DNA from: Bacillus sp. (in: firmicutes)
GTDB taxonomy: Bacteria; Bacillota; Bacilli; Bacillales; Salisediminibacteriaceae
Direction: 5' to 3'
Assembly (NCBI GenBank): GCA_003560495.1
Contig: PWLM01000217.1
Location: 1 to 64,000 of the forward strand
Length of the DNA stretch: 64,000 nt
Below the pieces are notes generated by a model, which was not told the origin of the DNA, searched no databases, and saw only the letters and a list, made by a program, of their open reading frames with translations. How positions within the stretch are numbered: the first letter of the stretch is position 1; every line of letters starts with the position of its first letter. Below, piece after piece: positions 55,277 through 56,989 of this stretch. A program made the translations under genes and the position numbers.

Positions 55277-55516
55277 TTTACCCTCTCCTTTTATTAAGTT
55301 TCGCTCTGTTAAAGCATTCTTGTTGGCGACTGGAGAGAAACTTCGCTTCCATCCGGACGACAGGGAAGCCGCATACTTTCTCCATGGCAGGTGTAAAGAG
55401 CAGCAGGCAGGCACCCCCAAAACAACACAGAGCCTTAAGTTTTAACGGCATGCTTCTATAGATTTCTATATGGATTTATAGGCGTTTGCAAATAGATGGC
55501 GGCCTGAGTGTTCCAT

Positions 55517-55557
55517 AAAAAAGCCTTCATAACACACAGTGTTATGAAGGCTTTTTT
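55517..55557 (-). terminator. Perfect 19-bp inverted-repeat terminator downstream of the UGA-containing hesB-like gene
   Basis: AAAAAAGCCTTCATAACAC-aca-GTGTTATGAAGGCTTTTTT. Confidence 0.93.
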
Positions 55558-55585
55558 GAACGGGAAAGGATTTAACCCTCCAGCT

Positions 55586-55870
55586 TTAGCAGCAGTCGCT
55601 GCTGCCATTATTCATGACAAGTCCGCCGCCGTCGTCTGTCTGCTGAAAAGCGAGTTCCAGGTTTCCGGACTGCTCGTGGGCAATCCGGTCGAACGCTACC
55701 TGCAGCCCGTTAATTTCTTCCACAATATCTTCTTCTGCCGGCGCATCCAGCGCCAGTCCCAGCTGAGGACCTCCTCAGCCCATACCTGCTGTGAAGATTT
55801 TAATATTGGAAGCTTCGTGTTCTTTCATAATATCAGTAATATACTGCTTTGCTTTTTCAGTAATCTGCAT
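55586..55870 (-). CDS. HesB/IscA-like protein with in-frame UGA at codon 32; candidate HesB-like selenoprotein
   Basis: Reverse-strand reading: MQITEKAKQYITDIMKEHEASNIKIFTAGMG[UGA]GGPQLGLALDAPAEEDIVEEINGLQVAFDRIAHEQSGNLELAFQQTDDGGGLVMNNGSSDCC, stop TAA. RBS AGAGGTG before ATG, same frame on both sides of the UGA, terminator after it. UGA at 55775-55777. Confidence 0.85.
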
Positions 55871-55892
55871 GATTTCACCTCTTTTACAGCTT

Positions 55893-55921
55893 TTCTTCAA
55901 GTATTTTATCAATTAAATACT
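55893..55921 (-). promoter_or_regulatory. Candidate sigma-A promoter for the hesB-like gene
   Basis: Reverse strand TTGTTT-17 nt-TAAAAT, about 22 nt upstream of the start codon. Confidence 0.5.
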
Positions 55922-55931
55922 AAGAAAACAA

Positions 55932-56855
55932 TTACTCTGCCTCATTTCTGCTTAAACCTTCTATAAAGGTTTCAGCATTATGTCTCATCATATCTATATA
56001 CGATGCAGCTTCACTTCCTTCTTCTCCTATTGCATCAGTATATACTTCCCCGGCAATTTCCACTCCGGAGTTGTCCGCCACCGTTTCCATATAACGTGGA
56101 TCAACAGTTGACTCCACAAACACCGCCGGTACTTCTCTTTCCTGAATGACATCGATGATCCGGTTGATCTGTCCGCTCGTTCCCTCCTCATGAGAATTCA
56201 TTTCCCATATTCCGTCAGAGTCAAAGCCGTAATCTTCCGCAAAATATTTAAACGCATTTTCACTGACAATGATCATACGCTGATCTTCATCAATTTCCGC
56301 TGTACCTTCTTCGATTTCAGCTGAAAGCTCTTCTATCTCCTGTTTATAATTTTCAGCGTTTTCCTCAAATATATCTGCTCCTTCCGGGTCTCTTTCTGAA
56401 AGATCGGCTGTAATATTATCAATATAATATTCTGCATTTTTCGGACTCAGCCAGGCATGGGGATCCGGAACATCCTCTCCTTCCAGCGGAATCGGTTCAA
56501 CTCCTTCTGATATTTCAATAATTTCCGTATCTGCCGCATTATCCATTATCCGCTCCAGCCATTCTTCAAGATTGAGTCCATTCGTGTAAAATACATCAGA
56601 TTCGTTTACTTTTCTGAAATCGCTCGGCACAGGTTCGTATTCATGGGGTTCTTCCCCGATCGGTACGATGTAATCCACTTCGCCCCGTTCTCCTAGAACT
56701 GCCTCGGTCATGTCTGCCAGTACAGAAAAACTGGCTGTCACATAAAGACCTTCACCGTTATTACCTTCATTTCCGCCTTTGGCTTCCTCATTATTACTTC
56801 CGCACGCCGAAAGCAGGAAGAGCGACAGGCCAAATAAAACAAATATTTTTTTCAT
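55932..56855 (-). CDS. Metal (Mn/Zn) ABC transporter substrate-binding lipoprotein, ZnuA/TroA family
   Basis: Lipobox LSAC; IVPIGEEPHEYEPVPSDFRKVNESDVFYTNGLNLEEWLERI, DPHAWLSPKNAEYYIDNI, cluster A-I fold motifs. Confidence 0.94.
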   Translation of the reverse strand: MKKIFVLFGLSLFLLSACGSNNEEAKGGNEGNNGEGLYVTASFSVLADMTEAVLGERGEVDYIVPIGEEPHEYEPVPSDFRKVNESDVFYTNGLNLEEWLERIMDNAADTEIIEISEGVEPIPLEGEDVPDPHAWLSPKNAEYYIDNITADLSERDPEGADIFEENAENYKQEIEELSAEIEEGTAEIDEDQRMIIVSENAFKYFAEDYGFDSDGIWEMNSHEEGTSGQINRIIDVIQEREVPAVFVESTVDPRYMETVADNSGVEIAGEVYTDAIGEEGSEAASYIDMMRHNAETFIEGLSRNEAE

Positions 56856-56901
56856 GTGCATGTTCCTCCACTTCTCCTAACGTATCTTTACTCTGGTTAT
56901 A

Positions 56902-56923
56902 AATGTTTCACTAAGGAAACATT
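56902..56923. promoter_or_regulatory. Candidate MntR-like operator 1
   Basis: AATGTTTC-actaag-GAAACATT palindrome upstream of the metal-binding protein gene. Confidence 0.5.
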
Positions 56924-56961
56924 TTCTCAATTATAATAATTAAAATGTTTGTTGTAAAGGA

Positions 56962-56989
56962 AAATAATTTGCCCTCAGGCAAATTATTT
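56962..56989. promoter_or_regulatory. Candidate MntR-like operator 2
   Basis: AAATAATTTGCC-CTCA-GGCAAATTATTT, perfect 12-bp arms. Confidence 0.55.

Follow-up and report, generated by a model that had tools for sequence, protein, structure and literature searches.

The question raised by this locus is whether a reading frame interrupted by a single in-frame UGA codes for a selenoprotein and, if so, what that protein does. The frame lies on the minus strand of a 64,000-nucleotide stretch of DNA (hereafter, the window; positions are those of the window), and a sequence-only reading had proposed that it is a hidden HesB-like selenoprotein gene. The read-through translation of positions 55870 to 55586 agreed with the frame then described: it gives a single frame of 94 codons plus TAA, in which the sole UGA is codon 32, and a product, MQITEKAKQYITDIMKEHEASNIKIFTAGMG-U-GGPQLGLALDAPAEEDIVEEINGLQVAFDRIAHEQSGNLELAFQQTDDGGGLVMNNGSSDCC, where the UGA is embedded in GMG-U-GGPQLGLALD and the C-terminus is DCC, i.e., the vicinal Cys pair already noticed. 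The ribosome-binding site before the ATG and the long terminator-like stem after the gene are also present (Table 1). The TTGTTT-N17-TAAAAT promoter suggested beside the gene is weak, with three of six positions matching in the first hexamer, and absent from the promoter-scan list. ORF callers halt at the UGA; the antisense ORF that they give at 55508-55966 (plus strand) is a mechanical listing with no further support. The neighbors of the UGA-containing gene are a binding-protein gene and dapF.

Table 1. Features of the selenoprotein candidate locus, with the evidence for each (all on the minus strand of the window).
Feature	Position	Strand	Evidence
HesB/IscA-like gene, very probably a selenoprotein gene (94 codons + TAA)	55586..55870	-	UGA frame; family matches; frame kept in relatives; dN << dS on both sides
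UGA codon 32, almost certainly read as selenocysteine	55775..55777	-	UGA shared with more than 30 relatives; Cys codon in its place in seven genomes without selA
SECIS-like hairpin (stem CUGGCGC / loop UGGAU / GCGCCGG)	55738..55756	-	pairing; covariation; presence in UGA members
Ribosome-binding site AGAGGTGA	55875..55882	-	sequence; GAGGTGA-type site retained in most relatives
Terminator-like hairpin 3' of the gene (19-bp stem AAAAAAGCCTTCATAACAC, loop TGT)	55517..55557	-	sequence
Upstream partner, manganese-type (PsaA/MntA-like) substrate-binding lipoprotein gene	55932..56861	-	PF01297 at 7e-84; solved relatives; adjacency
Putative promoter of the two-gene unit, TTTACA-17-TATAAT	56930..56958	-	11 of 12 consensus positions; consensus match only
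Putative MntR-like operator, TGTTTCCTTAGTGAAAC on this strand	56905..56921	-	conserved palindrome just after the -10 box

In principle, the UGA might terminate translation in a dead gene, or be a sequencing error for TGC/TGT in an ordinary one; the halt of the ORF callers would fit this explanation, as would the lack of selA and selD in the organism's own assembly (see below). The distribution of the codon argues against it. In 33 of the 61 genomes searched, the closest family member carries an in-frame TGA at this position, and distant TGA relatives were found in two more; a Cys codon occupies the position in the closest homolog of seven genomes, all of them without selA. When the count is limited to the 58 genomes that are at least 90% complete, the same UGA is present in the ortholog of 30 and distant UGA relatives in two, with selA in all 32, so that TGA forms occur in 32/43 selA-bearing genomes and in none of the 15 selA-less ones. 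Among the clear family members the split is perfect (UGA in 30/30 with selA, Cys only in 7/7 without it; Fisher p about 1e-7, which overstates the independence of the data because the genomes are related), and tRNA-Sec shows the same pattern as selA in the genomes checked. Cys is thus found at position 32 of homologs, as the sequence-only reading had anticipated, in genomes without the Sec machinery. The relatives share the UGA and show no further stops or frameshifts, except for a break near the 3' end of the UGA form in one genome (G051), in which selA, selD, and tRNA-Sec were not found and which, being only 76% complete, was excluded from the statistics. In the tree, the clade holding the window gene is all Sec (23/23 rows). 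Furthermore, dN is far lower than dS both before and after the UGA (0.26/1.7 and 0.17/0.95, respectively, for L019 versus L022); since it is well below dS in the segment after the UGA, this segment appears to be translated.

The RNA downstream of the codon adds a further line of evidence. A 7-bp stem begins 18 nt after the UGA (55756-55738); its pairing holds in 97.3% of cells over 26 distinct sequences, with changes on both sides in four of the seven pairs, as at the pair beside the closing pair, where U-A and G-C alternate along with a Glu43/Ala43 switch. The covariation score is 0.437; shuffles give 0.197 and slid partners no more than 0.106. RNAalifold recovers the same stem. The hairpin was found in 35/35 Sec members, in which 6.71 of the seven pairs form, versus 4.04 (sd 0.17) when the codons are redrawn synonymously; in the ten Cys homologs 2.60 pairs form, no better than in synonymous redraws (2.94). 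One codon of the hairpin, Leu41, is CTG in 32/32 sequences. This SECIS-like element supports UGA decoding independently of the evidence in the sequence-only reading. With this UGA recurring in more than 30 genomes that were sequenced separately, no other disruption, purifying selection on both sides, the U/Cys split by selA, and this covarying hairpin, the pseudogene or sequencing-error explanation appears in practice refuted by conservation, and we assign it hardly any chance of being correct.

The genome to which the window belongs is closest, by protein identity, to Alkalicoccus (99% to Alkalicoccus sp. LCM1.Bin51, 98% to A. saliphilus 6AG, and 73% to A. urumqiensis), and on these values the organism is an Alkalicoccus. 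Its assembly is 80% complete and consists of 256 contigs. The selABCD set, whose presence the sequence-only reading implied, was recovered in part: selB (316.9 bits) and tRNA-Sec (59.6 bits) were found over cut-off on the same contig (C18); the family search of this 80%-complete assembly returned nothing over cut-off for selA and a true selD, and a contig end falls at their expected place. This contig is collinear with contig 56 of G001 (96.5% over 12.6 kb), where selD and then selA directly follow selB, and both genes are over cut-off in 7/7 other genomes of the genus. Since C18 stops inside selB, where selD and selA follow in the relatives, the two genes probably lie in an assembly gap; the contig end accounts for the missing hits, which were not read as a true absence.

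In most of these Bacillales, selD too contains a UGA codon (GUGCK), which is followed at a distance of about 25 nt by a stable hairpin (L061-L066, L089, and L090). Two genomes (G056 and G031) harbor a selD over cut-off and lacking a UGA (L059 and L060, respectively), without a selA over cut-off, and possibly use selenium for something other than Sec.

The conservation of the UGA, its co-occurrence with selA, the covarying hairpin, and the presence of selB and tRNA-Sec all favor the hidden selenoprotein first proposed: the frame is very probably a functional selenoprotein gene, and the insertion of selenocysteine at UGA-32 we regard as close to certain on this comparative evidence. Two points weigh on the other side: the organism's own assembly yields neither selA nor selD, and the protein falls under the cut-offs of TIGR01911 and NF038090. 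According to the proposed mechanism, tRNA-Sec carried by SelB would decode UGA-32 as selenocysteine, directed by the hairpin just downstream.

Concerning the family, the product with U32 replaced by Cys matched the IscA_HesB_Se (E = 1.2e-12) and HesB_rel_seleno (E = 6.7e-11) profiles; on TIGR01911 and NF038090 the product scores 42.7 bits against a cut-off of 66.35 and 47.9 bits against a cut-off of 85, respectively, and six other members tested likewise fall under both cut-offs. The window protein is a relative, with significant E-values, yet not a filed member of TIGR01911 or NF038090. The match is not a chance one, because the HesB E-values are significant and more than 30 other genomes contain this frame together with its UGA. 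The motif listed for HesB-like selenoproteins, UxGP with Sec (PMC13188914), was found in the HesB domain as UGGP (GMG-U-GGP). G052 (L086) and G032 (L087) harbor members of a HesB-like UGA family that is more distant (MGIG-U-GGPQLRL) and in which a stem of this kind likewise follows the UGA; L086 is also under the NCBI HesB selenoprotein cut-offs.

The predicted structure matches E. coli IscA (1r94; Foldseek E = 1e-6, TM 0.78), as well as IscA with a [2Fe-2S] cluster, SufA, and DsrR. The model (pLDDT 78, pTM 0.63) was built from four sequences only, and residues 91-94 are poorly modelled; as modelled, the product has the IscA (A-type-carrier) fold. Two A-type carriers of solved structure, AQ_1857 and ErpA HI1723, have their conserved Cys at the position aligned with residue 32, in agreement with the earlier statement that HesB/IscA-like proteins normally have a conserved Cys where the UGA lies. 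The 94-residue product would hence place a selenolate where IscA/SufA/ErpA hold a conserved ligand Cys, together with a vicinal Cys pair at the C-terminus.

This raises the possibility of a true A-type carrier, one that holds iron or an Fe-S cluster and passes it on, and in which Sec replaces the first ligand Cys. The IscA fold of the model, the alignment to ErpA HI1723 and AQ_1857, and the match of the Cys-substituted product to Pfam Fe-S_biosyn (PF01521), which falls exactly at the cut-off, are in its favor. However, the three-ligand Cys pattern of the A-type carriers was not found: Sec is at the first position, and the C-terminal CxC is replaced by a CC at the extreme end, of which a single Cys is left in L036 and L043. 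Moreover, the same genome also codes at another locus for a classical A-type carrier (L088), with CGCG at its end, and the neighbors are Mn or ars genes rather than suf/isc ones. We therefore consider this role unlikely, albeit worth keeping in mind.

The genomic context offers other clues. The sequence-only reading had pointed to a metal-uptake gene next door, and this pairing turned out to be conserved: 61 bp upstream of the selenoprotein gene there is a gene for a ZnuA-family (PF01297) lipoprotein, whose closest relatives among solved structures are manganese-binding lipoproteins, PsaA among them; in 17 genomes of the family the two genes are immediate neighbors in the same orientation, and G049 holds a further, fragmentary case. 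No ATPase or permease gene was found among the locus neighbors beside the lipoprotein gene. Co-transcription with the lipoprotein gene is at least as likely as expression from the gene's own weak promoter, because the promoter upstream of the preceding gene is a better match than the gene-adjacent one. Just after its -10 box lies a palindrome, GTTTCACTAAGGAAACA, found in 16/17 loci versus 0.15 in shuffles, a contrast inflated by the fact that the motif was drawn from these related loci; it resembles the MntR site of mntH, AATTTGCCTTAAGGAAACT (PMC9861239). The simplest reading of this arrangement is that the lipoprotein and the selenoprotein would form a Mn-repressed unit, and co-regulation of the selenoprotein gene with the Mn-type lipoprotein gene is likely. 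A second palindrome, AAATAATTTGCCTGAGGGCAAATTATTT (minus strand), lies at 56962-56989, between the divergent peptidase and binding-protein genes, and has the look of a hairpin as well as of an additional MntR-type site.

Sister copies, Sec or Cys, occur in arsC-arsD-arsA operons. All ten Cys homologs examined adjoin arsD, arsA, arsC, acr3, or other arsenic-efflux-like genes, and the Sec copies in G009, G017, G029, G034, and G041 are also beside such genes; ArsD, ArsA, and a low-molecular-weight-phosphatase-type ArsC were confirmed with Pfam for L112, the other ars neighbors being named by eye from sequence similarity. HesB-like copies L101-L114 and L121 (some Sec, some Cys) are in or beside ars operons, and in some cases they overlap with the arsA end. 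L085, a second and fast-evolving Sec copy of G009 located in an ars locus, lacks the C-terminal Cys pair and retains the UGA and the hairpin. In the tree, two Cys copies from selA-less genomes (L073 and L078) are nested in an otherwise Sec ars clade, a placement that points to a Sec-to-Cys switch, with moderate support (84/91 to 86/95). A location of the window copy in an ars operon was ruled out by its neighbors, such a location being confined to the sister copies.

Position 32, the CC tail, and the neighboring Mn and ars genes lead us to infer a small A-type-carrier-like protein that would bind a metal or a metalloid through Se and two S. In the window lineage it would be expressed together with the Mn-type binding lipoprotein under a MntR-like repressor, and the sister copies would serve arsenic operons. 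Metal or metalloid binding is, on these grounds, the most likely role, and we advance it tentatively as the main one; against it, the CC tail is not shared by all members (L036 and L043 keep one Cys at the end, L085 none), residues 91-94 are modelled poorly, and the two contexts, Mn and ars, suggest that the metal differs between clades.

A redox role has also to be weighed, with Sec-32 and the C-terminal Cys pair forming a selenenyl-sulfide, so that the protein would reduce or sense an oxidant such as peroxide, in coordination with the supply of Mn, as part of the defense against oxidative stress. Sec and a vicinal Cys pair are a plausible redox set, and Mn import is generally linked to oxidative stress. 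Moreover, most selenoproteins with a known function are redox enzymes (PMC9312934). On the other hand, homologous folds have a metal ligand at position 32, the sister copies are in arsenic-efflux operons, where metalloid binding by thiols is usual, and the protein has neither a UxxC nor a CxxU motif. This interpretation is improbable in our view; it and the plain Fe-S carrier are nonetheless real rivals of metal or metalloid binding. Extending the binding hypothesis to the whole group, the Bacillales HesB-like selenoprotein clade might represent a selenium-based metal/metalloid module, composed of a Mn-regulon branch with a dedicated lipoprotein and an ars branch partnering ArsD/ArsA, in which Sec and Cys swap with the Sec machinery and the protein is a carrier of the A-type-carrier fold with a Se ligand; we offer this broader picture as a speculative one, rather doubtful as a whole.

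The HesB-like selenoproteins are an established family, catalogued for about 20 years without a function; the window gene belongs to a Bacillales subgroup that scores under the cut-offs of this family, carries a CC at its C-terminus, and has Mn/arsenic neighbors. Its members fall under both NCBI cut-offs and have therefore probably been missed or truncated in annotation. In the literature searched, with most subscription papers outside the search, no report was found linking HesB selenoproteins to manganese or ars genes, nor was one found in the literature searched on Alkalicoccus with selenocysteine. The genomic partners in Bacillales (the Mn-type protein with the MntR-like operator, and arsC-arsD-arsA) make the function testable in culturable bacteria, e.g., Alkalicoccus saliphilus, and the Sec/Cys swap in ars operons represents a natural test of the contribution of selenium to a metal-binding site.

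Lastly, the locus can be compared with known systems. With the A-type carriers IscA, SufA, and ErpA the window protein shares the predicted fold and the position of U32 on the first conserved Cys; unlike them, it has no C-terminal CxC, carries Sec for Cys, and lies outside any isc/suf context. In the ars1 operon of Bacillus sp. CDB3, the HesB-like Orf7 (PMC4562236), and in Exiguobacterium ars operons, hesB (PMC8779447), are beside arsD and arsA, as are the sister copies described here; Orf7 of CDB3 is followed by a gene for a dual-specificity phosphatase, and such a gene stands before the Sec copy in L121. The CDB3 and Exiguobacterium proteins were not called selenoproteins in those papers, and the window copy differs in being outside an ars operon. 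MMJJ_08070 of Methanococcus maripaludis was identified by mutagenesis and 75Se labelling as a HesB-like selenoprotein (PMC11097638), as proposed for the window gene, but it is archaeal; it was called distantly related to IscA, and its disruption mutant was unimpaired in nitrogen fixation (unpublished observation cited in PMC11097638). The closest likeness is with the HesB-like selenoproteins of TIGR01911 and NF038090 (PMC1794560, PMC13188914): in both cases we find a small IscA/HesB-like protein with Sec in UxGP, Cys homologs elsewhere, and a SECIS downstream, whereas the window gene differs from those members in its scores under both cut-offs, in the terminal Cys-Cys, and in the genomic partners of its family, a Mn-type binding-protein gene or ars genes.
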